The position numbers and the translations under genes were made by a program. DNA of 64,000 nucleotides from Pseudomonas migulae (GTDB lineage Bacteria > Pseudomonadota > Gammaproteobacteria > Pseudomonadales > Pseudomonadaceae), in contig NZ_JALJWR010000001.1 of assembly GCF_024169315.1 (NCBI RefSeq), positions 517,501 to 581,500 of the forward strand, in the 5' to 3' direction. Every line of letters begins with the position of its first letter. The first letter of the stretch is position 1. Below, piece by piece: positions 16,307 through 41,623 of the stretch. The notes beneath the pieces are model-generated. The model saw only the letters and a list, made by a program, of their open reading frames with translations. It was not told where the DNA came from and ran no database searches.

Positions 16307-16396
16307 ACCTAAGTGAGTTCATTCCGGGGCCGATGGCTTTGCGTGAATGACGACCGTGCACTAGAGCGTCCATGGGGCGTACAGGAGAGATGCTCG

Positions 16397-18394
16397 ATGA
16401 CTGCCGAAAAACCGACAGAGCTGAACTACAACCCTCATATGCCGTTGTCGCAGGCTTTACTGCTGCCGCGCATCGCGATTGAAAACACCATGCCGACCCT
16501 TGATGGCGGGCAATTCGCCGTTAAAGCGGTGGTCGGGCAAGACGTGGTGGTCACAAGCAAAGTCTTCGCCGACGGGCACGACAAGCTGGCCGTCAGGGTT
16601 CGCTGGCGGGCTGCCGATGATGACGTCTGGCAAACCGAAATCATGGGCGAGCTGGGCAATAACGGTTATCAGGGCCAGTTCCGCGTCCAGCGTCAGGGCC
16701 GTTATGTGTTCTGCATCGAGGCCTGGATCGATCAATTCGCCAGCTTCTGCTATGAGCTGGAAAAGAAGCACTCGGCCCGTGTGCCCGTCAGTCTGGAGTT
16801 GCAGGAAGGTCGCACGCTGGTTCAACAAGCGGCCGAACGCACCCAAGGCCAACTGAGTGAAGCACTGGCAGCGCTGCACCATGAGCTGTCCGGGTTGCTC
16901 GAAATCGAACAGGTGGCGCTGTTTCTGCACCAGCGCAGCGCCGACCTGATGGCCAAGGCCGATCACCGCGCCTATTTGAGCCTCAGCCCCGAGTATCCGC
17001 TGGACGTCGAACGTGAGATCGCCCAGTTCGCCAGTTGGTATGAGCTGTTTCCGCGTTCGATCACCGACGACCCGGCGCGCCACGGTACGTTCAATGACGT
17101 GCATTCGCGGCTGCCGATGATCCAGGACATGGGTTTCGACGTGCTGTACTTCCCGCCGATCCACCCGATCGGCCGCAGCTACCGCAAAGGCCCGAACAAT
17201 TCCCTCACCGCCGGCCCTGACGATCCGGGCAGCCCGTATGCCATCGGCAGCGACGAGGGTGGGCACGAGGCGATTCACTCGGAACTGGGCACCCGCGAAG
17301 ACTTCCGTCGGCTAGTGGCTGCCGCGGCTGACCACGGCCTGGAAATCGCCCTCGACTTCGCCATCCAGTGTTCCCAGGATCACCCATGGCTCAAGCAGCA
17401 CCCGGGCTGGTTCAACTGGCGGCCGGACGGCACGATCAAATATGCCGAGAACCCGCCGAAAAAATATCAGGACATCGTCAACGTCGATTTCTATGCCACC
17501 GAGGCGATTCCCAGCCTCTGGGTCGAGTTGCGCGACATTGTGGTGGGCTGGGTCGAGGAGGGCGTGAAGATCTTCCGCGTCGACAATCCGCACACCAAGC
17601 CGCTGCCGTTCTGGCAATGGCTGATCGCCGACGTGCGCGCGCTGTACCCGGAAGTGATTTTCCTCGCCGAAGCGTTCACCACGCCGGCAATGATGGCGCG
17701 TTTGGGCAAGGTCGGTTACTCGCAGAGCTACACCTACTTCACCTGGCGCAACACCAAGTACGAACTCTCGACTTATTTCAGCGAGCTCAACGAATCGCCG
17801 TGGCGCGAATGCTACCGGCCGAACTTCTTCGTCAATACACCGGACATTAACCCGGCGTTTCTGCATGAGTCCGGGCGTGCCGGTTTCCTGATCCGGGCGG
17901 CGCTGGCAACCATGGGCTCCGGGCTGTGGGGCATGTATTCGGGTTTCGAACTCTGTGAAGCCGCACCCGTGCCGGGGAAGGAGGAATACCTCAACTCCGA
18001 GAAGTACGAAATCCGCCCACGGGACTTCAACGCGCCAGGCAACATCATTGCCGAAATCGCCCAGCTCAACCGCATTCGCCGGCAAAACCCGGCCTTGCAC
18101 ACGCATTTGGGCCTGAAGGTCTATAACGCCTGGAATGACAACATTCTGTATTTCGGCAAGCGCAGCGCGGATGGCAGCAACTTCATCCTGGTGGCGGTCA
18201 GCCTCGACCCGCATAACGTTCAGGAAGCGAATTTCGAGTTGCCGCTGTGGGAAATGGGTTTGCCCGACGACGCCAGTACCCAGGGCGAGGACTTGATGAG
18301 CGGCCATCGCTGGACGTGGCACGGCAAGTACCAGTTCATGCGGATCGACCCGGCTCACCAGCCGTTCGGGATCTGGCGGATAACCACCTCCTAG
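16397..18394 (+). CDS. glgE: Alpha-1,4-glucan:maltose-1-phosphate maltosyltransferase
   Basis: GlgE, 665 residues, a GH13_3 enzyme that adds maltosyl units from maltose-1-phosphate to the non-reducing end of alpha-1,4-glucan. The N-terminal domain is beta-rich, and the catalytic barrel follows with FRVDNPH (nucleophile Asp396, equivalent to Asp394 of the Streptomyces enzyme as I recall it) and FLAEAFTTP (acid/base Glu425). I chose ATG 16397 (MTAEKPTEL) because AGGAGA lies eight bases before it; the longer open frame from 16313 has no ribosome site. It is the first gene of the plus-strand glucan operon, followed by the gene that makes its substrate. The promoter-like GAACTT element upstream suggests stress control. 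Confidence 0.95.
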   Translation: MTAEKPTELNYNPHMPLSQALLLPRIAIENTMPTLDGGQFAVKAVVGQDVVVTSKVFADGHDKLAVRVRWRAADDDVWQTEIMGELGNNGYQGQFRVQRQGRYVFCIEAWIDQFASFCYELEKKHSARVPVSLELQEGRTLVQQAAERTQGQLSEALAALHHELSGLLEIEQVALFLHQRSADLMAKADHRAYLSLSPEYPLDVEREIAQFASWYELFPRSITDDPARHGTFNDVHSRLPMIQDMGFDVLYFPPIHPIGRSYRKGPNNSLTAGPDDPGSPYAIGSDEGGHEAIHSELGTREDFRRLVAAAADHGLEIALDFAIQCSQDHPWLKQHPGWFNWRPDGTIKYAENPPKKYQDIVNVDFYATEAIPSLWVELRDIVVGWVEEGVKIFRVDNPHTKPLPFWQWLIADVRALYPEVIFLAEAFTTPAMMARLGKVGYSQSYTYFTWRNTKYELSTYFSELNESPWRECYRPNFFVNTPDINPAFLHESGRAGFLIRAALATMGSGLWGMYSGFELCEAAPVPGKEEYLNSEKYEIRPRDFNAPGNIIAEIAQLNRIRRQNPALHTHLGLKVYNAWNDNILYFGKRSADGSNFILVAVSLDPHNVQEANFELPLWEMGLPDDASTQGEDLMSGHRWTWHGKYQFMRIDPAHQPFGIWRITTS

Positions 18395-25789: not shown

Positions 25790-26596
25790 CTACAGATGGA
25801 CTTCCACCGCCAACGGCAAATGATCCGACAAATGCGTCCACGGCCTGCTGCCCAATATCCGCGGCTCGTGACTGCTGGCGTTGCGCAGGTAAATCCGGTC
25901 CAGGCGCAGCAACGGAAACCGTGCGGGATAGGTTTTGGCAGGACGACCATGGTGGCGCTCGAAGGCTTCGTGCAGGTAGTCACGACGGGCGAGGGCGGTG
26001 TTGCCCTGGAGCTGCCAGTCGTTGAAGTCGCCGGCGATGATCACCGGGGCTGCGGCGGGCAATGATTCCAGCAGTTGGCAGAGCAATTCGAGCTGCAACT
26101 GGCGATGGCTTTCCAGCAGGCTCAGGTGGACGCAGATCGCATGGACTTCGGCGTGGCCAGGGACGTCCAGCACACAATGCAACAGTCCGCGGCGTTCGGG
26201 CCCGGTGATCGAGACGTCGAGGTTGCGGTATTCGCGGATCGGATACTTCGACAGCAGGGCGTTGCCGTGGTGGCCATTGGGGTACACCGCGTTGCGCCCG
26301 TAGGCGAAATCGCTCCACATGCTGTCGGCCAGAAACTCGTATTGCGAGGTCTGCGGCCAATTGTTGAAACGGGAAGAATGGCGCTCGTGTTCACCGACGA
26401 CTTCCTGCAGGAACACCAGGTCCGCCGACGTACTGCGTACCGCCTCACGCAGTTCCGGGAGAATGAAGCGTCGGTTGAGCGCGGTGAACCCCTTGTGAGT
26501 GTTGACGGTCAACACACGCAGTCGATGAATCTCCGGTGGTGTGTTCAACGGCACCGAGTCGACGGCCTGCGGCCTGGAATCATTGGTCACGTTCAC
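25790..26596 (-). CDS. Endonuclease/exonuclease/phosphatase (EEP) family protein
   Basis: A 268-residue metal-dependent phosphohydrolase of the DNase I-like fold. Visible motifs are VNTHKGF near the N-terminus, FLQEVVGEH (metal-binding Glu), [20 protein letters not shown] (catalytic Asp-Asn) and the C-terminal [14 protein letters not shown] (Ser-Asp-His). It resembles E. coli YbhP, which is often beside a cardiolipin synthase gene; no such gene is adjacent here. Substrate is not predictable: phospholipid, nucleic acid or inositol-type phosphate are all possible. It may be the last gene of the long minus-strand set, separated from the second PIG-L gene by a REP. Confidence 0.82.
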
Positions 26597-26672
26597 TCCT
26601 CTGAATCAGGGTTGCCTATGTATGCGACTGAAACCGGCGCGGGCAGTTCAGTTCGAATATAACTCCATCCCC

Positions 26673-26762
26673 TGTGGGAGCGGGCTTGCTCGCGAATGCG
26701 ATCGTTCAGTCGGCATCATTGTTGGATGACCGACCGCTTTCGCGAGCAAGCCCGCTCCCACA
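26673..26762. repeat. REP palindrome pair
   Basis: Arms TGTGGGAGCGGGCTTGCTCG and its inverse ending GCTCCCACA at 26762, about 45 bases apart, between the EEP-family and PIG-L genes. Confidence 0.88.
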
Positions 26763-26777
26763 TTGGATAGGTGTAGT

Positions 26778-27536
26778 TCAGACGAACACGATTTCATACG
26801 GCAACCGCATACGCTCAAGCAGCACCGGTGGCAGCAGCGGGGCGATACCGATGGCCGGTTCACCGTCGAGCTGGCTGGCATAAGCGTGAGTGGCGTGGCT
26901 TTTGCGCGCGACGGTCCAGGTATCGAGACGGACCTTGCGTGCGCGATGCCAGGGAATCAATCCACTGTCACGCGATGGCCAGTGCCAGGCCCAGACGGGC
27001 ATTTCGTTGAACGCGGCGCCGACCGAGGCGGCGGCTTTGGCGCTGGCGCGGCCGACGGTTTCATGGTCGACATTACCGTCCTCGGCCCAGGTGGTGAACA
27101 CCACATCGCCCGGCCGCAGGTAGCGGGCAATGAACTGGGTCAATTGAAGTTCGCGCTCGGCCAGGGCGTTGTCGGTAAAACCGCCGCGAATCCATTTCAG
27201 GCTGTGCATCGGCAACCCGAGCCGGCGCAAGGCTTCGACGCTTTCCTGGGGGCGAAACACGCTGAGGCGTTTCTCCGACCACTGCTGCGACCCCGGATGA
27301 CTGGCGCTGCCGTCGGTTATCGAGATCAATTGCAGGGGATGGCCAAGGGTACTGAGCAATTGCAGGAGACCGCCGCAGGTCACGACTTCGTCACCGGGAT
27401 GCGGCGCGATCACCACCGCGCGCGCGCCGGCGGGGACCAGGGTCTGCGTGTTGATAACTGGAACATTGTCCAGCTGAAGAGCGCTGTTCCAGACTTGCGC
27501 TGACGGGCTGCTGTCGCTGATGGAAACTGATTTCAT
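26778..27536 (-). CDS. PIG-L deacetylase paralogue with altered active site
   Basis: A 252-residue protein of the PIG-L/MshB deacetylase family and the same length as the paralogue at 28909-29667, with which it aligns without gaps over the active-site regions. The family N-terminal motif HPDDE is HPGDE here (Gly48 in place of the Asp that is the general base in MshB), and the second motif HxDH is NVDH (Asn155 in place of His). The three expected zinc ligands His46, Asp49 and His158 remain. It may therefore bind metal and substrate but hydrolyse poorly, or act as a partner of the intact copy. I chose the start at MKSVSISD because AAGGA lies nine bases before it; the frame stays open to a TTG at 27614. 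It follows the GT2 gene after 120 bases. Confidence 0.82.
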   Translation of the reverse strand: MKSVSISDSSPSAQVWNSALQLDNVPVINTQTLVPAGARAVVIAPHPGDEVVTCGGLLQLLSTLGHPLQLISITDGSASHPGSQQWSEKRLSVFRPQESVEALRRLGLPMHSLKWIRGGFTDNALAERELQLTQFIARYLRPGDVVFTTWAEDGNVDHETVGRASAKAAASVGAAFNEMPVWAWHWPSRDSGLIPWHRARKVRLDTWTVARKSHATHAYASQLDGEPAIGIAPLLPPVLLERMRLPYEIVFV

Positions 27537-27656: not shown

Positions 27657-28316
27657 TTATCCGGCCTGCACCAGATCGCGCAAGTAGTCACCGAAGCCGC
27701 CCCGGGCCCGACTGTCCAGGCGGGCACTGGTGAGGACCTGAGGGCGCCGGCTCCAGGCAATCGTCGCGCCGCAGCGTTCGAGTTGTCGCACCAGTTGCAC
27801 GTCTTCATCGCACGCCAGGGGTTCGAAACCGCCGGCAAGCCGGTAGGCGTCGGCGCTGACCCCGAGATTGGCACCGTGAATGTGCCGGTGTCCTTCACGG
27901 TTCTGATAGTGCTGGTGATAGCGAATCTGTGCCGATTCACTGAAGGACTCATCCCACGTCTCCACGGTGACCGTGCCGCACACCGCGTCCACTTCCAGCG
28001 ATAATTGCGCCACCAGCCAGTCGTGGGCGACGCGACTGTCGGCGTCGGAGCAGGAAATCCAGCGCGCCCCGCGCTCCAGCAGAAACCGCGCGCCCGCAGC
28101 GCGGGCCTGGCCAACATTTCGCGCGTCGATTTCCAGGCAGTGCACCGGGTAACTGTCGACGATGTCGGACGAGCGATCGGTGCAACTGTCGAGCACCACC
28201 AGCACCTCGACCGTCTCACCGTCCAGCAGCTCGTGTTGTGCCGCGCGCAATGCGGCTTGCAGGCAATCTTCGAGCAAGGCTTCTTCGTTGTGCGCCGGGA
28301 TCAGAATGCCAATCAT
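27657..28316 (-). CDS. Family 2 glycosyltransferase
   Basis: A 219-residue GT-A fold transferase. It starts MIGILIPAHNEEALLEDCL (nucleotide-binding strand), has VLVVLDSCTDRS and the DXD-like motif SCSDADSRV for metal and sugar nucleotide, and ends with a predicted acceptor helix but no membrane segment, so it is probably soluble. The ATG overlaps the stop of the methyltransferase gene by four bases (ATGA), so translation is coupled. It is the last member of the coupled cassette with the acyl-CoA dehydrogenase-like, PIG-L and methyltransferase genes. The sugar donor and acceptor are unknown. Confidence 0.82.
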   Translation of the reverse strand: MIGILIPAHNEEALLEDCLQAALRAAQHELLDGETVEVLVVLDSCTDRSSDIVDSYPVHCLEIDARNVGQARAAGARFLLERGARWISCSDADSRVAHDWLVAQLSLEVDAVCGTVTVETWDESFSESAQIRYHQHYQNREGHRHIHGANLGVSADAYRLAGGFEPLACDEDVQLVRQLERCGATIAWSRRPQVLTSARLDSRARGGFGDYLRDLVQAG

Positions 28317-28912
28317 CGCAAGCCCTCCAGCGCCGCCACGGAGCGCGGTTCGCGGCTCCAGAGTTCCAGCAGGAAATCGGCTTCCTGATGCAGGACCAGG
28401 CGTGGCAGGTGCAAATGCTCGTGCAGCAAGTCATGGACCTGCCGGGCGTTCAGCGGGCAGCCATCGATAGGCGGACGCCAGTGACAGGCCAGCAACTGGC
28501 CGTCAGCGGTCAGTGACTGTGCCGCGTGTTCGATGAGTTGCCTGAGGTCATCGGCGTCCAGGTAGTAACCGACTTCACTGAGCACGATCAGGTCGAACCG
28601 TTCGTTTGGCCAGTCGGCGGGCAAGCGGCTTTGGCGCACTTCGGCGTGATCGAACAGGCTCAGGCGAGCCCGGGCCAGCGTCACGGCGGCGGCTGCGGTG
28701 TCGCAGCACAGCAGCCGATCGCAACGGCTGGCCAGGTCAGCGCTCAGTTCGCCGTTGGCGCAACCCGGCTCGAAGATGGCGCGGTAGTGAGGTCGGGGCA
28801 GCGCCGCGAGGGTGATCGCGCGTTTGCGTTGTTCGTACCAGCGCTGCCGAAAGGCCCACGGATCATCGTTGCCGGCAAACAATCCGTCGAAATAGCGATC
28901 CTCGACACTCAT
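28313..28912 (-). CDS. SAM-dependent methyltransferase, NodS-like
   Basis: A 199-residue class I methyltransferase. The SAM-binding motif I is IFEPGCANGELSADLA and motif II ends LLCCDTAAAAV; the post-motif string FDLIVLSEVGYYLD follows. The N-terminal EDRYFDGLFAGNDDPWAFRQRWYEQRKR resembles nodulation protein S, an N-methyltransferase acting on deacetylated chitooligosaccharide. That resemblance is notable because the neighbouring gene encodes a possible sugar deacetylase, but it is inference. The ATG overlaps the PIG-L stop by four bases and its own stop overlaps the glycosyltransferase start by four bases. I chose MSVEDRYF; the frame upstream of it is PIG-L sequence in another frame. Confidence 0.85.
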   Translation of the reverse strand: MSVEDRYFDGLFAGNDDPWAFRQRWYEQRKRAITLAALPRPHYRAIFEPGCANGELSADLASRCDRLLCCDTAAAAVTLARARLSLFDHAEVRQSRLPADWPNERFDLIVLSEVGYYLDADDLRQLIEHAAQSLTADGQLLACHWRPPIDGCPLNARQVHDLLHEHLHLPRLVLHQEADFLLELWSREPRSVAALEGLR

Positions 28913-29667
28913 AGAAACACCACCTCGAACGGTTGCAGCAATCGGTCGAGCACATACGGCGCCAGCACCGGAGGCAAGCCGATGTGCGGGTCGCCTTCCA
29001 GCTGGCTGGCGAAGGCGTGAATGGCATGACGCTTGCGCGCGACCAGCGGCGGGGCCAGGAGGATTTTTCGCGCACGCGGCCACGGCACCAGGCTGTCTTC
29101 GGGGGTTGCCCAATGCCACGTCCAGACGGGCAGTTCATGCACCGTTGCGCCAACGCGTTTCGCCGCCACGGCACTGGCGCGCCCAACCGCCTCATGGTCG
29201 CAATGACCGTCTTCGCGCCATGTGGTGAAGATCACGTCGGTGGGACGCAGGTGACGCTCGATGAATTCAGCCAATTCCAATTCCCGCGCCGCGACCTGAC
29301 TGTCAGCGAACCCGCCGCGCAGCCATTTGAGGCTGTGTAATGGCAGACCGAGCCGGCGCAAGGCTTCGACGGATTCTTGCGGACGGACCGCGCTCAAGCG
29401 CTCGACCGGCCAGCGTCGGGAGCCGGGGTGGCTGGCGCTGCCGTCGGTGACCGAGATCAGTTGCATCGGCCGCCCGGCGGCGGCGAGCAATTGCAGGAAA
29501 CCACCGCAGCCGAGCACTTCGTCGTCCGGGTGCGGGGCGATGATCACAGCCCGGGAACCCTCCGGCACCAGATCAAGGATGTCGATCACCGGCAGTTGCG
29601 CCAGGTGGCTGGAGGTTTGCCACAGGTGCAAAGGTGTGCCTTGACCGACAATAGGGTTGGTTTTCAT
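28909..29667 (-). CDS. PIG-L family deacetylase, intact active site
   Basis: A 252-residue zinc-dependent deacetylase of the PIG-L/MshB type, which removes acetyl groups from N-acetylglucosamine-like sugars. The motif HPDDE lies at 46-50 (zinc ligands His46 and Asp49, general base Asp48) and the second motif HCDH at 155-158. The start at 29667 overlaps the stop of the acyl-CoA dehydrogenase-like gene (TTATGA); AAGGA lies 11 bases before it. An ATG three codons earlier is also possible. It shares long identical blocks with the paralogue at 26778-27536, for example RPQESVEALRRLGLP. With the methyltransferase and the GT2 gene it forms a plausible deacetylate-methylate-glycosylate set. Confidence 0.85.
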   Translation of the reverse strand: MKTNPIVGQGTPLHLWQTSSHLAQLPVIDILDLVPEGSRAVIIAPHPDDEVLGCGGFLQLLAAAGRPMQLISVTDGSASHPGSRRWPVERLSAVRPQESVEALRRLGLPLHSLKWLRGGFADSQVAARELELAEFIERHLRPTDVIFTTWREDGHCDHEAVGRASAVAAKRVGATVHELPVWTWHWATPEDSLVPWPRARKILLAPPLVARKRHAIHAFASQLEGDPHIGLPPVLAPYVLDRLLQPFEVVFL

Positions 29668-30653
29668 AACGTCCATGTTCCTTTGATGACGTGCTGGCCG
29701 AGCGCGGCGAGGTCGCGTTCGGCGTGGCTTTGGCGCAGGAACACCGGCAGGTCGGCCATCAGTCGGGCGAACTGTCGGTCCTTGCAATAAGGGCCGGCAC
29801 CGAGGGCGTGGCCGACGTGCCGGATCACCTGTTCGACGGCATTTTCCACCACCGCCCGGGCGCGGCGAGCGAGGCGTTCGGCGTCTTCCTGTGGGGCGGC
29901 ATCGATACTCAATGCGCTGAATCGCAACACCGTTGCCGCCGCATGCAATGCGCTGTCGACGGCGCCAAGGTGGGCGAGGGCGTGGGGTTCTTCGCGATGG
30001 GTGCAGTGACTGCGCAGACGTTCGGCGAGACTTTGCGCCGCGCCGTACCAGCACGCCGCAATGCCGATCCCGCCTTGCCAGAAGCCAGGGCGTTGCAGGT
30101 AGTCGCCGGGGTTGCCGATGGCCTGCGCCTCGGCGCCGTCGAACAGCACTTCAACGCTGCCGGTGGCGCCCATGCCCACCGCTTGCCAGCCTTGATCGGT
30201 GATGCTCACGCCGGGCTGATCCAGCGCCACCGCGACCAACTGCTGGCGGTCCTGTTCATCCCACGCCGTCAGCAACGCGTGGCTCAACACCGCCGCGCCC
30301 GAGCACCAGGCCTTGCGCCCGTTCAGCGCGACCATCTGGCCTTGAGGACTGACCCGCACCCGCGCGTCCGGCGGCTCGGCAGCCCACATCCCCCACGTGC
30401 TGGACGGCGTGGGCGAACCGCCGAGTTGCTGAATGATCGCCAAGGCATCGGTATGCCCCTCGTACAACTTGCACAACCCCAGATCATGCCCGCCGACCTC
30501 GGCCAGTCGCTGAAAGCGCTCCAGTGTGCGGCCGCTGCCCGGCAGCGGAAGCTGATCGAGACCGGCCTCGACCAATTCCCGCAAGCACTGGCCTAGCGCG
30601 CGTGTATCGGCGTAGTCCGCTGACTGTCGTTGCAGAAAAGCCTGTAGGTCCAT
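29664..30653 (-). CDS. Acyl-CoA dehydrogenase-like flavoprotein of the glucan-linked cassette
   Basis: A 329-residue acyl-CoA dehydrogenase family protein, shorter than the usual 380-400. It has the N-terminal helical domain (LAEVGGHDLGLCKLYEGHTDAL), a central beta domain (GMWAAEPPDARVRVSPQGQMVALNGRKAWCSGA) and a C-terminal helical domain, with the end shortened. I cannot identify a catalytic Glu by eye, so a desaturase role is not certain; it could be a flavin oxidase acting on a non-CoA substrate. I chose MDLQAFLQ (30653), which follows the glgX stop by one base, so the cassette is coupled to glgX. Its own stop overlaps the PIG-L start. Confidence 0.78.
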   Translation of the reverse strand: MDLQAFLQRQSADYADTRALGQCLRELVEAGLDQLPLPGSGRTLERFQRLAEVGGHDLGLCKLYEGHTDALAIIQQLGGSPTPSSTWGMWAAEPPDARVRVSPQGQMVALNGRKAWCSGAAVLSHALLTAWDEQDRQQLVAVALDQPGVSITDQGWQAVGMGATGSVEVLFDGAEAQAIGNPGDYLQRPGFWQGGIGIAACWYGAAQSLAERLRSHCTHREEPHALAHLGAVDSALHAAATVLRFSALSIDAAPQEDAERLARRARAVVENAVEQVIRHVGHALGAGPYCKDRQFARLMADLPVFLRQSHAERDLAALGQHVIKGTWTL

Positions 30654-30654
30654 T

Positions 30655-32814
<2,160 letters not shown>

Positions 32815-32841: not shown

Positions 32842-32942
32842 TGTAGGAGCGAGGCTTGCCCGCGAAGGCGGCGTGTCAGACGATTCAACGGTTGACTGAA
32901 ACACCGCTTTCGCGGGTTTCGCGGGCAAGCCTCGCTCCTACA
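32842..32942. repeat. REP palindrome pair between DUF2934 and glgX genes
   Basis: Arms TGTAGGAGCGAGGCTTGCCC and the inverse ending CTCCTACA at 32942. A second hairpin GTGGGCG-AGCG-CGCCCAC follows at 32958-32975. Together they could attenuate transcription inside the operon. Confidence 0.85.
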
Positions 32943-33026: not shown

Positions 33027-33365
33027 TCAAACCGCGGGTGGTTTTTTCGTGGTGCGCGGTTTTTTCTCTGCGGCTTTTTCACCCGGCGGGGTTACTTTTG
33101 CAGCGGCCGCCGGTTTGGCCTTGGCTTTCGATGCAGCAGCCTTGCCATCGGCCTGACCGTTGAGCTTGCTATCCGCCTTGACTGCCGGTTTGGCGGTGGC
33201 GGTCTTGCTGCCGGCAGCCTTCGGTGATTTCTTCGGCGCCAGGGCTTCGGCTTCAGCCAGTTTGCGAGCCATTTCCCAATGACGGGCTTCCTGGCCCTCG
33301 GGTTTTCCTTCCGACTCCCAGATCTGATAGGCAAATTCGCGAACGCGTTTATCTTCGGTACTCAT
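33027..33365 (-). CDS. DUF2934 protein with lysine/alanine-rich tail
   Basis: A 112-residue protein. Residues 1-42 form the DUF2934 motif (VREFAYQIWESEGKPEGQEARHWEMARKL), a short helical element found in many glycogen and trehalose clusters. The remaining 70 residues are almost only Lys, Ala, Pro and small residues (AKPAVKAD, KAAASKAKAKPAAAAK), resembling histone H1 tails, so it is disordered and strongly basic. AGGAG lies seven bases before the ATG, two bases after the treY stop. The function is unknown; binding to nucleic acid or to a polyanion is a guess from composition. Confidence 0.82.
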   Translation of the reverse strand: MSTEDKRVREFAYQIWESEGKPEGQEARHWEMARKLAEAEALAPKKSPKAAGSKTATAKPAVKADSKLNGQADGKAAASKAKAKPAAAAKVTPPGEKAAEKKPRTTKKPPAV

Positions 33366-33367
33366 CG

Positions 33368-36154
33368 CTATGCTCCTGAACTGAACTCAAAGTTTTGGAT
33401 AAAGAGATTGACCGGGAAATCCCCCAGCGCGGCGCCAATCATCAGCTCCTTGTGTTCTGTGACTGCGACGCTGGAAAAAAGTCCCTTCAGATTGTCGTCA
33501 GGGGTGGTGAACGGTAATTTGACCCGCGTATCGCCCCACTGCTGCGCACCGACCCTGGGTTCGGCACTGTTTTCCAGCAGGCTTGCGCAGCGTATCGGTA
33601 CGATCACGATGGCCTGCTTCCGGTTGTACGAGCGTGCAAATGCCAGCACCCGGTGTGCCTCGCTGCCGACCACTTCCAGCGCCTGATAAGACCCACGGTG
33701 AAACAGCTCGGCATGCTCGGCGCGCAGGTTCAACGTGCGCGCAATCAAGGTTTGTTTGATGCGCCCGTCACGCCAGTTCGCCAAAAGATCCGGCAGGTCC
33801 GGCGGACGGTGCATCGCCTGTTGTCGACTGGCGTAATCCACCGGGCGGCGGTTGTCCGGGTCGACCAGGGAAAAGTCCCAGTACTCATTGCCTTGGTAAA
33901 GGTCGGGTATGCCCGGCACCGTCATGCGCAGCAAGGTTTGCGCCAGACTGTTGAGGGCGCCGGGTGCAGCAATCGATATCGCCGCTTTACTCAGGGCTGC
34001 GCGCAGCCGTTCACCTTCGGGGCTGAGCAGCAGGCGTTCGAGGAATTGGTGCGCCGCCTGTTCGTAAGCGTCGTTGGGTGCGCTCCAGCTGCTTTGCAAC
34101 TTGGCTTCGCGCAAGGCTTTCTGTTGCCACTGCCACACACGTTGAGTGTAGTTCTCGTACGCCGCCTTATCGTCATCGCGCAGATCCAGTGGCCAGCTGC
34201 CGAGGAGCGCCTGATACAGGATCAGCTCATCGCCCGCGGACGGCATCTGGTCGTTGTCGCGCAGCGGCCGGGCCAGTGTTTGCCAGAGCGGCACCTGCCA
34301 GGCGAACCACGCGCTGCGCTCGCTCAACACCGCCAGCCTGGCGCGGGTGTCTTCGCCGCGTTTATGGTCATGGGTTGCGGTAGCCAGCAGGTTGTCGGGG
34401 AACTCTTCGAGGCGATTGAGGCACGCGGCATGGAAATCGGCCACCGGCGCGCTGAACTGCTCGGTGCTGAATCCCACGTCATTGCGCGACAACAAGACCG
34501 CCGAACGATAGAACGCAGTGTCTTCCACGGCTTTGGCTGCCGCGGGCGAGGTCAGTTGCTGAAAACGTACGCAGGCGTGCTTGAGGATCTTGCGCGAGCG
34601 CCCCACCGGACGTTGGCGCCACGGTTCACCCCCCAGCCATCGGGCGAGGCAATCGAGCACGGGCCAATCGGCTTCGCTGAGGGTTTGCCGCGCACCGTCC
34701 ATGGCTTGCTGGAAAAACACATCGTCTTGCGCCGAGCGTCCACGGGGACTGATGTAAGTGCGATACACCGGAAAGTGCACGATCAATTCCTGCAACGCCC
34801 GGCGAATCGCGCCGAGGGTCAGGTCGCGGGTCATCAGGTCTTCCCGGGCCACTTGCAGCATGGCCTGGGCGACACTTTCAAAGTCGCCGGCGAGGGAACC
34901 GTTGAGGATCTGCTGACGCGACAGTTGTGCTTCCTGCCGGAAATCGGCAGGTCGTTCGCTGTAGCGACTCCACAGTTCACCCAGGGTTTCTGCCCCGGCG
35001 GGATCATGTTGCAGCAACGACAACTGGTTCATGAATTCGTAACCGGTGGTGCCGTCCACCGACCAGTCACGGTGCAGGGTTTCCCCCTCGCCAAGGATCT
35101 TCTCGACGTAAATGGGCAAGTGCCGATCCGGCACCAGGCTGTCGACCCGGCGCCGCAGCTTGCGGCAATAACCGCGCGGGTCGGCGAGGCCATCGATGTG
35201 GTCGATACGCAAGCCGTCGATCAGGCCTTCAGCCACCAGTTCGAAGATTTTCGCGTGGGTCGCTTCGAACACCGCCGGACGCTCCACGCGCAGCCCACCC
35301 AGTTCGTTGACATCGAAAAAGCGCCGCCAGTTGATGTCGTCCGCCGCCGTGCGCCAACTGGCGAGGCGGTAGCTCTGGCGTTCCAGCAATTGATGCAGAC
35401 GCTGGAAGCCGTCCGGCGTAAGCGAATCGTAGGCTTTCAGGTTCTGTTCAATGGCCTGGAGCACGATCGGGTCGCTGGCCAGTTCGCGCAGCTCGTCTTT
35501 CAACGGCATCGCCAGACTGTGGGCGTCGGTCTGATAGCTCAGGGTGCTGAAGCGGTCGGCCAGGGACTTGAGTTGCTCGTCATCCGCTTTCAGCAGTTCG
35601 CCGTAATTCATCGGGCAAATCGGGAAATGGTGGTCGTAGTGTTCGACGTAAAACGCACCATGCTGTGCATCGAAGCGCAAGGGCAGGGTGCCGTCCTGCA
35701 ACGCAACGCCGTAGTCGCTGCCGAGGAACGGCAGCAGCAGCTGGCCTTCCATCAATGGATCGGGCGAATGCCACTGGATGTCAAAGAACTCGCCATAAGG
35801 ACTCAGGCGTCCCCATTCCAGCAAGTCCAGCCACCAGGGGTTATCACCGCCGCCGACAGCCATGTGGTTGGAGACGATGTCGAGGATCAATCCCATGTTC
35901 TGCGCACGCAACGCGCTGACCAGCCGCCGCAACGCCGCTTCGCCGCCCAGTTCGGGGTTGACCGTGGTCGGGTCCACCACGTCATAGCCGTGCATCGAGC
36001 CGGCGCGGGCGCTCAGCAGTGGCGAGGCGTAGACATGGCTGATGCCGAGGCTGGCGAAATACGGCACCAGCGGCACCGCATCGTCGAGCGTGAAGTCTTT
36101 ATGAAACTGTAGCCGCACGGTTGCGCGCAGCGGTTGAAGACGTGGCTGATTCAT
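33368..36154 (-). CDS. treY: Malto-oligosyltrehalose synthase
   Basis: TreY, 928 residues, GH13_26. It converts the reducing-end glucose of linear alpha-glucan to an alpha,alpha-1,1 linkage, making maltooligosyl-trehalose. Motifs seen: ATVRLQFHKDFTLDDA at the start, YASPLLSARAGSMHGYDVVD, DIVSNHMAVGG, GLRIDHIDGLADPRGY (nucleophile) and YVEKILGEGETL (acid/base). The long insertion in the C-terminal half is usual for Pseudomonas TreY. The ATG overlaps the malQ stop by four bases. Its product is the substrate of TreZ in the same operon. Confidence 0.95.
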   Translation of the reverse strand: MNQPRLQPLRATVRLQFHKDFTLDDAVPLVPYFASLGISHVYASPLLSARAGSMHGYDVVDPTTVNPELGGEAALRRLVSALRAQNMGLILDIVSNHMAVGGGDNPWWLDLLEWGRLSPYGEFFDIQWHSPDPLMEGQLLLPFLGSDYGVALQDGTLPLRFDAQHGAFYVEHYDHHFPICPMNYGELLKADDEQLKSLADRFSTLSYQTDAHSLAMPLKDELRELASDPIVLQAIEQNLKAYDSLTPDGFQRLHQLLERQSYRLASWRTAADDINWRRFFDVNELGGLRVERPAVFEATHAKIFELVAEGLIDGLRIDHIDGLADPRGYCRKLRRRVDSLVPDRHLPIYVEKILGEGETLHRDWSVDGTTGYEFMNQLSLLQHDPAGAETLGELWSRYSERPADFRQEAQLSRQQILNGSLAGDFESVAQAMLQVAREDLMTRDLTLGAIRRALQELIVHFPVYRTYISPRGRSAQDDVFFQQAMDGARQTLSEADWPVLDCLARWLGGEPWRQRPVGRSRKILKHACVRFQQLTSPAAAKAVEDTAFYRSAVLLSRNDVGFSTEQFSAPVADFHAACLNRLEEFPDNLLATATHDHKRGEDTRARLAVLSERSAWFAWQVPLWQTLARPLRDNDQMPSAGDELILYQALLGSWPLDLRDDDKAAYENYTQRVWQWQQKALREAKLQSSWSAPNDAYEQAAHQFLERLLLSPEGERLRAALSKAAISIAAPGALNSLAQTLLRMTVPGIPDLYQGNEYWDFSLVDPDNRRPVDYASRQQAMHRPPDLPDLLANWRDGRIKQTLIARTLNLRAEHAELFHRGSYQALEVVGSEAHRVLAFARSYNRKQAIVIVPIRCASLLENSAEPRVGAQQWGDTRVKLPFTTPDDNLKGLFSSVAVTEHKELMIGAALGDFPVNLFIQNFEFSSGA

Positions 36155-38229
36155 CGGTCACGCTCGGCGGCCTGAAGTCGCGCACACGCGAGCAGTTCCA
36201 GGCGCCGGGCGGCGTCCGGGTCGTCGAGCAGCGCTTCGCTGTCACCGGGCAAACGACGCGACCAATTGGGGTGGGTGTCGATGGTACCGGGCAGATTGGC
36301 CTGCTGTTCGATGCCCAGGGCATCCTCCAGCGGCAGCAACACCAGCGGCGCCCGGGTGTGACCGAGGAAGCGGATGGCCGCATCGAGCACCTGATCGGTT
36401 TCGTGGGACTCTTCGCGAAAGTTCTGCGGGTCTTCGCTTAACACGCGGCGCAGGCCTTCGCGTTCCCGTTCACGATGATGGCGCCACTCGATTTCACCTT
36501 GGGCATCGACCAGCCCCAGTCGGGCATTCCAGTCGATATCGCGGCCATGCCACCAGCCATTGAGCGTCGGCAGGTCATGGGTGCTGGTGGTCGCCAGGGC
36601 GTTGTCCGGCCAATCGAGGATCGGCTTGAAGTGGGCGTTGTCCTGTTCGAACAGCATCACGCGCATGCCGAGGATCGAGCGGGCGATGAGTTTTTCCCGC
36701 AGGCTGTCCTCCACCGTACCGAGATCTTCGCCGAGGACGATGGCCTGATGCCGATGGGACTCCAGGGCCAGAAGGCGCAGAAGGTCGTCAACCGGGTAAT
36801 AGAGATAAGCGCCGTCAGCGGGTACTGCGCCGTTGGGGATCACCCACAGCCGTTGCAGGCCCATGACGTGATCGATGCGCAGACCGCCCGCGTGGGCGAA
36901 GTTGGCCCGGAGCATTTCGATGAAGGCGCGAAAGCCGTTGCGGACCAGGCCTTCGGGCGAAAACGCGGAAATCCCCCAGCCCTGGCCGGTGCGGTTGAGA
37001 ATGTCCGGCGGCGCGCCTACGGTCAGGGAGGCGAGCAATTCATCCTGGCGACTCCAGGCCTGGCTGCCACCACCGTCGGCACCCACCGCCAGGTCAGCGA
37101 TCAAGCCAATGCTCATGCCGCTGCTGCGGGCGGCGGTTTGCGCACGCTCCAGGCATCGGGTGATCAGCCATTGGCAGAAGGCAAAGAAGCCGATGCGCCC
37201 GGCATTCTCTTCGGCGAATTCGGCCAGTGCCGCGCTGCGTGGATCGCGCCATTGCTCGGGCCATTCGCGCCAGTCGAGGTTTTCACCCTTGGCGGCGCGG
37301 GCTTCCTGAATGGCTTCGAAGCGGCAGTGGTTTTCCAGGGCTTCGCCGGCCGCGTGGCGGAAACTGCTGAAGTCGGCATGCAGCGGGTGTTCGCCGTGGA
37401 CAAAGCCTTCGTACAGCGCCTGCAACAGCCGATGCTTGGCTTCGGCCGCAACGGGCCAGTCGATCAGTGGCAATGCTTCGAGGTGCTTGAGTTCAGCGGC
37501 GAGCCCCGTGGCATCAATCGCCGTGCGCATCGCGCGCTCACCCAGGATCGCGCCGGGCGCGGCGTACAAGCTGTTGAGAAACAAACGGCTGGACGGCGAA
37601 TAGGGGCTGTAGCGTTGGGTGTCGCTGCTGAACATCGCGTGCAGCGGACTGATCGCCAAGGCTTCGGCGCCCCGTTCACCGGCTACCCGGGCGAGATCCT
37701 CCAGTGCCTGGGTGTCGCCGAAACCGCCATCGCCGGGACGGCGCAGCGAATACAACTGCACGCTGAGGCCCCAGGCACGCGGGATCGGACTGTCGACGGC
37801 ATCGCCGACGCTGTAGCAGCGCGACGGTGCCACGGCCAGCGTAAAGGACTGGCCTTCAATGCTGACATGCTGGTAACCGACCGGAATCAGGCCGGGCAAC
37901 ATCGCCTCGGCATCCAGTTTCAGGTTGAGCCGCGAGCCATCTTCAAGGTGGACCTCGCAGGGTGTTTGCGGCTCGAAGTAGTGCGCCAGGTTCAGGCTCA
38001 CGCCCACGTCCGCGGTCAGCAACGGCGGCAGGTGTCGGGTCTGTTGCACCTGCTGCAATTCGAGCAGGCTGGCGTCGATTTCCTGTGCGCTGCCGGCCGG
38101 GTGGCCGAGTCCGGTCAGGACGTTGCGTAATACCGATGGAGCGACTTTCTGTGGGCGGCCGTTGGCGTCGATCCAGTCGACCGCCAGGCCAGCTCGGCTG
38201 GCCAGTATTTCCAGTTGCGCATCGCTCAT
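36151..38229 (-). CDS. malQ: 4-alpha-glucanotransferase (amylomaltase)
   Basis: MalQ, 692 residues, GH77. It transfers glucan segments between maltooligosaccharides, so it can supply chains long enough for TreY and recycle short ones. After an N-terminal extension (1-120) the barrel shows SPLHAMFSSDTQRYSPYSPSSR, GLRIDHVMGLQRLWVIP (nucleophile Asp), VLGEDLGTVEDSLRE (acid/base) and TSTHDLPTLNGWWHG. I chose MSDAQLEIL at 38229, which overlaps the treZ stop by four bases; the open frame further upstream is treZ sequence. Confidence 0.95.
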   Translation of the reverse strand: MSDAQLEILASRAGLAVDWIDANGRPQKVAPSVLRNVLTGLGHPAGSAQEIDASLLELQQVQQTRHLPPLLTADVGVSLNLAHYFEPQTPCEVHLEDGSRLNLKLDAEAMLPGLIPVGYQHVSIEGQSFTLAVAPSRCYSVGDAVDSPIPRAWGLSVQLYSLRRPGDGGFGDTQALEDLARVAGERGAEALAISPLHAMFSSDTQRYSPYSPSSRLFLNSLYAAPGAILGERAMRTAIDATGLAAELKHLEALPLIDWPVAAEAKHRLLQALYEGFVHGEHPLHADFSSFRHAAGEALENHCRFEAIQEARAAKGENLDWREWPEQWRDPRSAALAEFAEENAGRIGFFAFCQWLITRCLERAQTAARSSGMSIGLIADLAVGADGGGSQAWSRQDELLASLTVGAPPDILNRTGQGWGISAFSPEGLVRNGFRAFIEMLRANFAHAGGLRIDHVMGLQRLWVIPNGAVPADGAYLYYPVDDLLRLLALESHRHQAIVLGEDLGTVEDSLREKLIARSILGMRVMLFEQDNAHFKPILDWPDNALATTSTHDLPTLNGWWHGRDIDWNARLGLVDAQGEIEWRHHREREREGLRRVLSEDPQNFREESHETDQVLDAAIRFLGHTRAPLVLLPLEDALGIEQQANLPGTIDTHPNWSRRLPGDSEALLDDPDAARRLELLACARLQAAERDR

Positions 38230-40022
38230 TGGCGCTCTCCATCCGGGGGTAGCAAAGGGGCTGCGGCCGTGAGGCTGACTAGCGCGCAATACGGGGCAAG
38301 CGTGCCCTGATCCAACAGGTCGGCGGACTGCGGTGGGTGTTCGAACAACAACGAAGTGCCGGCCTGTGGGGAGTGGACCACTGGCGTGTCGCTGAGGTTC
38401 AGGTCAATGCGCAGCAGACTGCCGTCGCCCAGTTGCCAACGCGCCGTGACCGCGCCTCTGCCCAGCACATCGGCGCCCAGTGGATGGGCGCCGGGTACGT
38501 GCGGGACGATCCGCTCATGGCGGATTTTCAACAGTTGGCGATACAGCTGGTAAATGCCGGAGTCTCGACTGGAAGTCAGATCGGGACGAGAGTCTTCGAA
38601 GGTCTGCTGCGCATTCGGGTCGGGAATCCGTTCACGTTTCTCCGGATCGGCAAACGCATCGAACGCGGCGAACTCGTTACGTCGGCCTTCGCGGACCAGT
38701 TCCGCCAGTTCGCCGTGATGGCTGGTGAAGAACAGGAACGGTTGCTCGGCGGCGAACTCGTCGCCCATGAACATCAGCGGGATCATCGGCGACAACAGCA
38801 ACAGAGCGGTCGCGGCTTTCAGCGCGTCGGGGTGGGTCAGTTGCGGCAGACGTTCGCCAAACGCACGATTGCCGATCTGGTCATGGTTCTGCAAAAACAA
38901 CACGAACGCGCTGGGCGGCAGGTGCCCGCTGGGCTCGCCCCGCGCTTCACCGTGGCGGTTGGTGTGACCCTGGAACACGAAGCCTTGGCTCAGGCAGCGT
39001 GCCAGTTTCTCTGTGGGATTGTCCGCGTAGTCGGCGTAATAGGCATCGGTTTCACCGGTCAGCAGCACGTGCAACGCGTTGTGGCCGTCGTCGTTCCACT
39101 GCGCGTCGAACCCTTCCTGCAGCAGGCTGGCCTGGTTGTGCTCGTTTTCGACCGTCAACCAGACATGCCGCGCCGGGTCCGTCTGCTGGCGAATTCGTTG
39201 CGCCAGTTCCTGAAGAAAGTCCGGGCTTTCGATGGCGTGCACTGCATCAAAGCGCAATCCGTCAAAGCGGTATTCCAGCAACCACATCAACGCATTGTCG
39301 ATGAAGAAGTCGCGCACCTCGCGCCGCCGGAAATCGATGGCGGCGCCCCAGGGCGTGTGTTTGTCTTCATTGAAGAAGCCCTTGGCGTAGCGATGCAGGT
39401 AATTGCCATCCGGGCCGAAGTGGTTGTAGACCACGTCGAGAATCACCGCCAGGCCATGGCCGTGGGCTGTGTCGATCAGGTGCTTGAGTTGTTCGGGGGT
39501 ACCATAGGAGGCCTGGGGCGCGTAGGGCAGCACGCCGTCGTAGCCCCAGTTGCGGTCACCGGGAAATTGCGCAATGGGCATCAGTTCGATGGCCGTGATA
39601 CCCAGCGCCGTGAGTCGCTCGAGGTGCTGTTCGACTTCACTGAAGCCGCCCAGCGCGCCGACGTGCAACTCGTAGATCACCGCCTCGTTCCATGGCCGAC
39701 CCAACCATGTGCTGTGCTGCCAGGTGTAGGCGAGGGGATCGACCACCACGCTGTGCAGGTGAATGTCACCGGCCTGTGCGCGGGAGGCCGGGTCGGGGAC
39801 TTCAATCTCACCGTCGATGTTGTAGCGGTAACGCGTGCCGGCGGGGCAACGCGTTTTGATCACGAACCAGCCATCGGCCTGAGGCAGTAGCGGCAAGGAT
39901 TGTCCATCTTCCAGTTCGACACTGACAAAAAACGCATCTGGCGCCCACAAGGCAAAACGCGTGTGCTCTGCGTCCAGCATGATTGCGCCGTGGGGCCAGG
40001 TCTCAAGGGTCCGTAACGGCAT
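38226..40022 (-). CDS. treZ: Malto-oligosyltrehalose trehalohydrolase
   Basis: TreZ, 598 residues, GH13_10. It hydrolyses maltooligosyl-trehalose to release trehalose. An N-terminal CBM48-like domain (TRFALWAPDAFFVSVEL) precedes the barrel, with DGLRFDAVHAIESP (nucleophile), VENEHNQ and FLQNHDQIGNRAFGERL. It lies 14 bases downstream of glgA and overlaps malQ. Intact length. Confidence 0.95.
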   Translation of the reverse strand: MPLRTLETWPHGAIMLDAEHTRFALWAPDAFFVSVELEDGQSLPLLPQADGWFVIKTRCPAGTRYRYNIDGEIEVPDPASRAQAGDIHLHSVVVDPLAYTWQHSTWLGRPWNEAVIYELHVGALGGFSEVEQHLERLTALGITAIELMPIAQFPGDRNWGYDGVLPYAPQASYGTPEQLKHLIDTAHGHGLAVILDVVYNHFGPDGNYLHRYAKGFFNEDKHTPWGAAIDFRRREVRDFFIDNALMWLLEYRFDGLRFDAVHAIESPDFLQELAQRIRQQTDPARHVWLTVENEHNQASLLQEGFDAQWNDDGHNALHVLLTGETDAYYADYADNPTEKLARCLSQGFVFQGHTNRHGEARGEPSGHLPPSAFVLFLQNHDQIGNRAFGERLPQLTHPDALKAATALLLLSPMIPLMFMGDEFAAEQPFLFFTSHHGELAELVREGRRNEFAAFDAFADPEKRERIPDPNAQQTFEDSRPDLTSSRDSGIYQLYRQLLKIRHERIVPHVPGAHPLGADVLGRGAVTARWQLGDGSLLRIDLNLSDTPVVHSPQAGTSLLFEHPPQSADLLDQGTLAPYCALVSLTAAAPLLPPDGERQ

Positions 40023-40036
40023 TGTTCAAAAACCTC

Positions 40037-41623
40037 TTACTGTCTGTTCGATTTCCCCAGTGCTTTAGCAACAAGCTGCTCATAGAGTTCGGCGTAGGGT
40101 TCGACCGCCTTGCACCAGTTGAACGGTGCGGCCATGGCGCGGCAACGCATGGCGTTGAGCAGGTCGGGAAAGGCAAACACCTTGAAGGCACGGCTCAGGG
40201 CTTCCTGATAACTCTCCACGGTGGATTCGTCGAACAGGAAACCGGTCACGCCGTTTTCGATGGTGTCGGCCAGACCGCCGGTGTTGCGGGCAACCGGCAA
40301 CGAGCCGAAGCGCTGGGCATACATCTGGCTCAGGCCGCACGGTTCGTAACGCGATGGCATCAGCAGGAAATCACTGCCGGCGAACATGCGGCGCGCGTCG
40401 GTTTCGTTGAAGCCGATGCGTACACCGATTTGCCCCGGGAAACGCAGGGCCAGTTCACGCATGGCTTGTTCTTCTTCCGGCTCGCCACGACCGATGATCG
40501 CGATCTGGCCACCCGATTCGACGATGTACTCGGACACGGCTTCGGTCAGGTCCAGGCCTTTCTGGTAGACCAGGCGCGAAACCACGGCAAACAGCGGGCC
40601 TTCCGAATCATCCAGGCCAAACAGGTCGCGCACGTGCGCCGCGTTGACCGCCTTGCCTTCCCAGTCACCGATGCTGAACGGGTGGGACAGGTGCTCGTCG
40701 GTGGCGGCGTCCCAGCTCTCATCGATGCCATTGGGAATGCCGCTGAGCAGGCCTTGCTGGGTCTTGGCGGCGAGAAAGCCGTCGAGGCCGCAGCCGAAGG
40801 CCGGCGTGGTGATTTCCTGGGCGTAGGTGGCGCTGACCGTGGTGATGTGGCTCGAATACGCCATGCCGGCCTTGAGGAACGACATCTTGCCGTAGAACTC
40901 CATGCCTTCCTGTTGCAGGGCATGCGCGGGAATGCCCAGTTCAGGGCAGGACCCCAGACTGGTCACGCCTTGATAAGCGAGGTTGTGAATGGTGAACAGC
41001 GTCGGGGTGCGCTGCCCACGCCAGTGCATGTAGGCAGGCGCCAGGCCGGCGGGCCAGTCATGGGCGTGCACCAGGTCCGGGCACCAGTGGATCTGGGCGA
41101 GGTTGGCGGCGATATCGGCAGCGGCCAGGCCCAGGCGGGCGAAGCGGATATGGTTGTCCGGCCAGTCGCGACCGTTGTTGGCGCCGTAGGGCGACCCTTC
41201 GCGCTCGTAGAGTTCAGGGCAGATCAACACGTAAATGACCAGACCGTCGGGCATGTCCATGCGCCCGATCTTGCAGGGCGGCAGCGCGGCGTGACCACCG
41301 AGCTCACCAATAATATGAATCGGGTTTTCGCTGTGCAGCACTTGCGGGTAACCGGGGATCAGCACACGCACATCGTGCAATTGCGCCATGGCCCGGGGCA
41401 GCGCGGCCGAGACGTCGCCCAGACCGCCGGTCTTCACCAGGTCGGCGATTTCCGAGGTCACGAACAACACTTTCTTTCGATTGGGGTTCTGGCTGGCCAC
41501 CGGGGTCAGCGTCTTGGTGCTCGGGACGTTGATCGATTGGGCACTTGGGGCGCTCACGGCGCTCGTATCGCCGACCTGCTGATGAGCACGTTCTCCCTGA
41601 ATATCTAAAGCCGCACTGATCAT
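40037..41623 (-). CDS. glgA: Glycogen synthase
   Basis: GlgA, 528 residues, GT5. The catalytic part starts at KKVLFVTSEIADLVKTGGLGDVSAALP (sugar-nucleotide binding KTGGLGDV) and the C-terminal Rossmann domain holds PSRYEPCGLSQMYAQRFGSLPVARNTGGLADTI. About 50 residues before the catalytic start form a low-complexity Ser/Thr/Val/Ala extension not present in E. coli GlgA. I chose MISAALDIQ (41623), six bases after GGGAG; the frame is open further upstream but without motif. It is the first gene of the long minus-strand operon. No glgC (ADP-glucose synthesis) is visible in the window, so the donor must come from elsewhere or be another nucleotide sugar. Confidence 0.93.
   Translation of the reverse strand: MISAALDIQGERAHQQVGDTSAVSAPSAQSINVPSTKTLTPVASQNPNRKKVLFVTSEIADLVKTGGLGDVSAALPRAMAQLHDVRVLIPGYPQVLHSENPIHIIGELGGHAALPPCKIGRMDMPDGLVIYVLICPELYEREGSPYGANNGRDWPDNHIRFARLGLAAADIAANLAQIHWCPDLVHAHDWPAGLAPAYMHWRGQRTPTLFTIHNLAYQGVTSLGSCPELGIPAHALQQEGMEFYGKMSFLKAGMAYSSHITTVSATYAQEITTPAFGCGLDGFLAAKTQQGLLSGIPNGIDESWDAATDEHLSHPFSIGDWEGKAVNAAHVRDLFGLDDSEGPLFAVVSRLVYQKGLDLTEAVSEYIVESGGQIAIIGRGEPEEEQAMRELALRFPGQIGVRIGFNETDARRMFAGSDFLLMPSRYEPCGLSQMYAQRFGSLPVARNTGGLADTIENGVTGFLFDESTVESYQEALSRAFKVFAFPDLLNAMRCRAMAAPFNWCKAVEPYAELYEQLVAKALGKSNRQ

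Follow-up and report, generated by a model that had tools for sequence, protein, structure and literature searches.

What do the four genes that follow glgX in Pseudomonas migulae make, and is their product tied to the trehalose and glucan genes beside them? The window we analyzed is 64,000 nucleotides (positions 517,501 to 581,500 of contig NZ_JALJWR010000001.1) from a 6.5 Mb genome. In it, genes for a flavoprotein with the acyl-CoA dehydrogenase (ACAD) fold, a PIG-L family deacetylase, a NodS-like methyltransferase (MT), and a GT2 glycosyltransferase run along the minus strand from 30653 to 27657, with glgX upstream. We find that the four genes are a genuine co-inherited unit and that their link to glgX is lineage-specific. 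We propose, with a probability of about 50%, that they encode a compact cytosolic pathway to a modified amino-sugar glycoside, which cells would deploy together with compatible solutes when exposed to osmotic, desiccation, or oxidative stress.

The first-pass annotation had placed the ACAD gene one base after glgX and had described three ATGA overlaps of four bases, and the translated boundaries bear this out: glgX ends at 30655, the single base 30654 follows, and the ACAD gene starts at 30653, while the overlaps are at 29664-29667 (ACAD/PIG-L), 28909-28912 (PIG-L/MT), and 28313-28316 (MT/GT2). The families named there (PIG-L, NodS-like, and GT2) all pass their Pfam cutoffs. It had also treated the four genes as one set, and across 119 Pseudomonas genomes they do co-occur. 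ACAD is present in 77 genomes, and MT and GT2 are each present in 76, which are the same 76 genomes, namely the ACAD genomes minus G224, whose assembly is in 650 contigs and has only a fragment of ACAD. At least one PIG-L is found in 95 genomes, including all 76 with the set, and glgX in 106. In 9 of the 76 genomes (G172, G179, G186, G191, G195, G199, G222, G228, and G233), GT2 is either on a separate contig or more than 30 kb from the rest of the set, but it is never lost. All four genes lie within 6.5 kb of each other at 63 of 78 loci, and across those 63 loci the pairwise divergences of the four proteins are correlated (r = 0.76-0.90). Given the co-occurrence in these genomes, we reject a chance neighborhood.

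Several observations weigh against such a tight association. Fifteen of the 78 loci do not have one or more of the genes inside 6.5 kb (some of these are contig ends), and L176 has none of the other three. In 2 of the 76 genomes (G200 and G228), ACAD is read in two pieces. A relative of PIG-L is present in 19 of 119 genomes that do not have MT or GT2, and in G156 a cassette-type PIG-L lies beside ligD without the other three genes (L199), so PIG-L is less strictly tied to the set. We also note that in G200, treY, ACAD, and PIG-L are each in several pieces (L057), which resembles a decaying operon, and that in G172, the displaced GT2 is grouped with three further glycosyltransferase-type genes (L180, 5537-9188) that resemble those in the clusters of Methylobacterium and other distant bacteria. 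A glycosyltransferase gene found with the set in distant clusters also occurs in 6 of the 119 Pseudomonas genomes, all of which have the set and none of which is the window's genome; this is too few to weigh.

The PIG-L protein scores 91.1 bits against PF02585 (cutoff 28.2) and has the HPDDE and HxDH motifs. It scores below the NCBIfam equivalog cutoffs for BshB (45.3 vs. 182.5 for BshB1, and 34 vs. 195.25). HPDDE is present in 66 of 83 PIG-L rows, and 10 of the remaining 17 are a duplicate with HPGDE, which we call PIGL2. The first-pass annotation had left PIGL2 out of the set, along with the endonuclease/exonuclease/phosphatase gene further downstream. In our tree of PIG-L rows of at least 200 amino acids without a stop, the 16 PIGL2 rows form one clade, free of other rows, with 100/100 support. 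This clade is nested in the glgX-linked PIG-L group, where the inner forks are only moderately supported. PIGL2 is probably a duplicate of the cassette's PIG-L. It is retained next to glgX also in genomes that no longer have the four-gene set, and it is possible that PIGL2 is a pseudo-enzyme with a role of its own. Genomes with glgX-PIGL2 but without the set occur in both PIGL2 subclades, which suggests that the whole set was lost at least twice.

The methyltransferase passes the Pfam cutoff for NodS (PF05401, 51.3 vs. 24) but not that of the NCBIfam NodS equivalog (60.3 vs. 300 bits), and a close relative has a solved structure (PDB 4isc). The glycosyltransferase scores 55 bits against PF00535 (cutoff 23.3) and has the GT-A fold. 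Against our proposal, model and fold searches with GT2 gave no donor or acceptor.

The ACAD-like protein falls just below the cutoff for PF02770 (32.1 vs. 33.3 bits); this domain is precomputed for most of its close relatives, and the ACAD fold is present. At the position that corresponds to the catalytic glutamate (in the YEGT motif), Glu is found in none of 76 rows and Asp in two; we placed this position by extending the alignment without gaps from the RD motif, and the catalytic residue could instead be at the isovaleryl-type position. (Rows under 270 amino acids or with a stop were excluded.) The preceding residues are Arg in 73 and Gln in 74 of the 76 rows. Because of the missing Glu at the inferred position, we reject an ordinary acyl-CoA dehydrogenase; the flavoprotein probably does not belong to that class of enzymes.

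In a profile search against the PDB, the best matches were DszC (3.8e-15) and MsuC (9.3e-13), followed by 5z8t/5gj7, which are named acyl-CoA dehydrogenase type 2 (5e-12), and 1rx0 (1.2e-9). Despite this name, Foldseek lists 5z8t as a flavin-containing monooxygenase. The top Foldseek hits were TdsC and KijD3, with KijD3 bound to an amino sugar at rank 3; identity over the rows listed was 15-20%. DszC/TdsC, SfnB, and MsuC are flavin monooxygenases, and KijD3 and DnmZ are amino-sugar N-oxygenases. Other comparisons do not place the flavoprotein nearer to the monooxygenases: VIA-align ties true acyl-CoA dehydrogenases with monooxygenases; the window's protein by itself had 7xp7, a CoA dehydrogenase, as its top entry (7.7e-8), with DnmZ next (1.6e-5); and a member from Methylobacterium matched only dehydrogenases, at E = 1e-5.

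To see where else the set occurs, we searched evenly-drawn samples with a profile (E = 1e-25) and found matches in 34 of 398 genomes from the phylum and in 7 of 321 from the class, with the window's genome in both; a search with the single ACAD protein at 1e-10 matched 10 of 150 genomes. We examined the neighborhoods of 31 hand-picked genomes out of the 76 other Pseudomonas with ACAD, of all 9 other matches in the 150-genome sample, of every new match from the phylum and class, and of 9 of 65 plasmid records. A further collection of 80 loci contributed alignment rows only, some of which were used. One locus of the phylum sample (L157) is on a contig of just 8.6 kb, so its neighbors are cut short.

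The first-pass annotation had asked if the set is always with glgX or treYZ, and it is not. In 54 of the 77 Pseudomonas genomes with ACAD, at most 100 bases separate it from glgX. At a number of the other Pseudomonas loci that we examined, the set is beside Ku, LigD, and phospholipase-D-type genes. A locus from a related genus (L156) has Ku, LigD, and the set, and then glgX-treY-malQ on the opposite strand, which bridges the two placements. Two Comamonas plasmids carry the set with otsA on one side and otsB on the other, and its ends overlap or nearly touch both. At L025 and L159, the set comes after otsB-otsA and shares their strand (these otsA genes encode GT20 proteins), and at L160 it is downstream of glgX, treZ, treY, and glgA. 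An Acinetobacter plasmid has otsAB and a catalase near the set. A sucrose-phosphate synthase is nearby in four loci (L026 and L178 from the same class, and L170 and L175 from another class of the phylum), and an ectoine hydroxylase-like gene in two loci of one genus (L024 and L158). The set is also carried by records from the alphaproteobacteria Methylobacterium and Sulfitobacter and by plasmids of Kitasatospora and Streptomyces. Three plasmids (L144, L146, and L148) combine the set, variously, with catalase, ferritin-like, PRC-barrel, and polyphosphate kinase genes, and one of them is typed as mobilizable. Some of these neighbors are less certain than their names imply, as the ectoine hydroxylase is just short of its cutoff (336.2 vs. 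336.5), the sucrose-phosphate synthase domain scores 414.3 against a cutoff of 576 (its Pfam phosphatase domain passes), and the manganese catalase scores 164.2 against a cutoff of 350.

The earlier suggestion of a link to trehalose genes does stand: it recurs in several lineages and with two unrelated routes of synthesis (TreYZ and OtsAB). This raises the possibility that the set makes a derivative of trehalose or maltodextrin, such as an aminated and methylated trehalose or a glucan cap. The placement of the set inside or after otsAB (Comamonas, L025, L159) or after treZ-treY-glgA (L160) is what this idea would lead us to expect, as is the proximity to glgX in most of the Pseudomonas. However, we think that it is doubtful. 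Of the 34 loci from the phylum sample, 24 have no trehalose or glucan gene within 9 kb (and such genes are near just 5 of 29 loci from outside Pseudomonas); six loci have a sucrose-phosphate synthase or ectoine hydroxylase-like gene nearby; and trehalose would need to acquire an N-acetyl group before PIG-L could act on it. With trehalose or glucan genes near just 10 of the 34 loci, we reject an obligate modification of trehalose or glucan. With neighbors this varied (Ku/LigD, catalase, sucrose-phosphate synthase, and an ectoine hydroxylase-like gene), nothing specifically favors the modified trehalose or glucan cap that was first suggested.

Outside of Pseudomonas, 10 of the 29 loci of the phylum sample have a solute gene within 9 kb of the set; among the control windows, 2 of 40 do (p = 0.0019 by a one-sided Fisher test). 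Any solute or stress gene is near 15 of the 29 loci, as compared to 5 of 40 (p = 0.0005). We positioned the 20-kb control windows manually, in 21 of the genomes that had been sampled. Narrower tests were not significant outside of Pseudomonas (trehalose/glucan genes alone, 5/29 vs. 2/40, p = 0.10; stress genes alone, 7/29 vs. 3/40, p = 0.056). Also, related rows are not independent, and the markers for sucrose-phosphate synthase and EctD were added after we noticed them as neighbors, so these p-values, which ignore kinship, are only indicative.

Alternatively, the set might be a passenger on mobile stress islands, with a product that is unrelated to osmoprotection. It is found on mobilizable and conjugative plasmids, and 14 of the 29 loci from outside Pseudomonas have no scored gene nearby, which also counts against the stress association that we propose. 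We consider this kind of hitch-hiking to be quite improbable, given the enrichment of solute and stress genes relative to the control windows and the insertion of the set between otsA and otsB, with genes that touch or overlap.

A third idea is that the set modifies a lipid or a glycan of the cell envelope (for example, to form a glucosaminyl lipid) and that the stress neighborhood reflects shared regulation only. Near the set in some Pseudomonas are LPG_synthase_TM genes and the phospholipase-D-type genes, which are cardiolipin-synthase-like. Some distant clusters add GT4 or other glycosyltransferase genes, one of which is weakly similar to GlcN-phosphatidylglycerol synthase (55 vs. a cutoff of 480). 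But none of the four proteins from the window has a membrane-like segment, and we did not see a flippase, polymerase, or exporter as a constant member of the set, so we view a role in the envelope as unlikely.

Deacetylation, methylation, and glycosyl transfer, as first suggested, remain a logical route. From the protein families, the co-inheritance, the stress-related neighbors, and the ACAD position without Glu, we infer the substrates, the order of steps, the product, and its role as follows. GT2 would move an N-acetylated sugar, probably of the GlcNAc type, onto a small acceptor. PIG-L would strip the acetyl group from the glycoside, the NodS-like enzyme would methylate the freed amine, and the ACAD-fold flavoprotein would oxidize or N-oxygenate the product. 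Trehalose may be the acceptor in some hosts, but since the set is also found beside sucrose and ectoine-type genes, it is probably not the acceptor in every host. Because the solute genes next to the set differ from host to host, what the hosts share is more likely to be the stress (osmotic, drying, or oxidative) than one of those sugars. A bolder version of this proposal, which is a long shot, is that the product is a stress metabolite of a new class. It would be a de-N-acetylated, N-methylated amino-sugar glycoside that the flavoprotein N-oxygenates to a hydroxylamine or nitrone, and it would act as a radical-scavenging protectant; the set would be kept next to whichever compatible-solute pathway the host uses and would have been spread between phyla by plasmids.

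The features of the locus are listed in Table 1.

Table 1. Features at and around the four-gene set, by position in the window
Feature	Position	Strand	Evidence
ACAD-fold flavoprotein, 329 aa	29664..30653	-	translation, Pfam, fold
PIG-L family deacetylase, 252 aa, HPDDE and GHxDH motifs	28909..29667	-	translation, Pfam
NodS-like SAM methyltransferase (MT), 199 aa	28313..28912	-	translation, Pfam
GT2 glycosyltransferase, 219 aa	27657..28316	-	translation, Pfam
Second PIG-L (PIGL2), HPGDE replacing HPDDE	26778..27536	-	Pfam, tree
Endonuclease/exonuclease/phosphatase family gene	25790..26596	-	Pfam
glgX, glycogen debranching enzyme	30655..32814	-	TIGR02100, 1095.3 bits (cutoff 640.9)
REP-type inverted pair, upstream of glgX	about 32844..32940	.	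by eye
DUF2934 gene, 112 aa, between treY and glgX	33027..33365	-	
treY, malQ, treZ, glgA, upstream genes	33368..41620	-	curated models

The first-pass annotation had put the whole set in one message from glgA, but this transcript is putative: the interval between treY and glgX contains the DUF2934 gene and a REP palindromic pair. The DUF2934 protein is rich in Lys and Ala and has homologs at the equivalent position in L194 and L198. By eye, there is a second REP-type palindrome pair in the gap between PIGL2 and the next gene (26597-26777). Scans with promoter and terminator consensus patterns gave nothing above the shuffled expectation, and an AlgU-type promoter pattern had 0 matches in the window (0.20 expected). 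Elsewhere in the window, the gene at 16394-18394 is presumably glgE; it had no NCBIfam match at 1e-60.

A literature search found no description of the four-gene set, including in the accessible parts of PMC13130816 and PMC12029717; most subscription papers and all bioRxiv preprints were outside its scope. In the window's lineage, the immediate upstream neighbor is the Pseudomonas glgA-treZ-malQ-treY-glgX operon for trehalose and glucan, as described in the accessible parts of PMC8982409 and PMC8084333; other lineages carry the set without this operon. In the P. syringae study, PSPTO3125-3130 (glgA to glgX) were deleted, and the accessible text does not mention the genes beyond (PMC8982409). 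The P. aeruginosa study concerns trehalose and glucan genes, and its accessible text does not mention the four downstream genes (PMC8084333). If the set lies downstream, then polar effects of deletions in the glgX/treYZ operon may confound phenotypes that are ascribed to trehalose or glucan. More broadly, we found the set in 76 of the 119 Pseudomonas genomes sampled, in other Pseudomonadota, and on plasmids of actinomycetes, and our proposal would imply that soil and plant bacteria have a common stress metabolite that has yet to be identified.

Among known systems, the backbone of Nod factors is made by NodC, NodB, and NodS, and this pathway has the same logic of a GT2, an N-deacetylase, and a NodS-type N-methyltransferase. 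However, it uses a NodB-type deacetylase where the set has PIG-L, and NodC is a processive membrane protein, unlike the small, soluble GT2 of the set. The set also adds a flavoprotein, has no acyltransferase, and has a methyltransferase that is below the NodS equivalog cutoff. The mycothiol and bacillithiol pathways are small, run in the cytosol, and lead to a protectant; in them, PIG-L proteins deacetylate a glycoside of GlcNAc, and this deacetylation resembles what we propose. But the window's set has no GT4 or cysteine-adding enzyme, and its PIG-L is below the BshB cutoffs. Finally, the flavoprotein has its fold in common with the monooxygenases DszC/TdsC, SfnB, and MsuC and the N-oxygenases KijD3 and DnmZ, and like the DszC/KijD3-type enzymes, it does not have the dehydrogenase Glu at the inferred position. 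It scores just 51 against the SfnB model (cutoff 430.9), and unlike these enzymes, it is shortened, has conserved EGH and RQ motifs, and belongs to a clustered gene set of its own.

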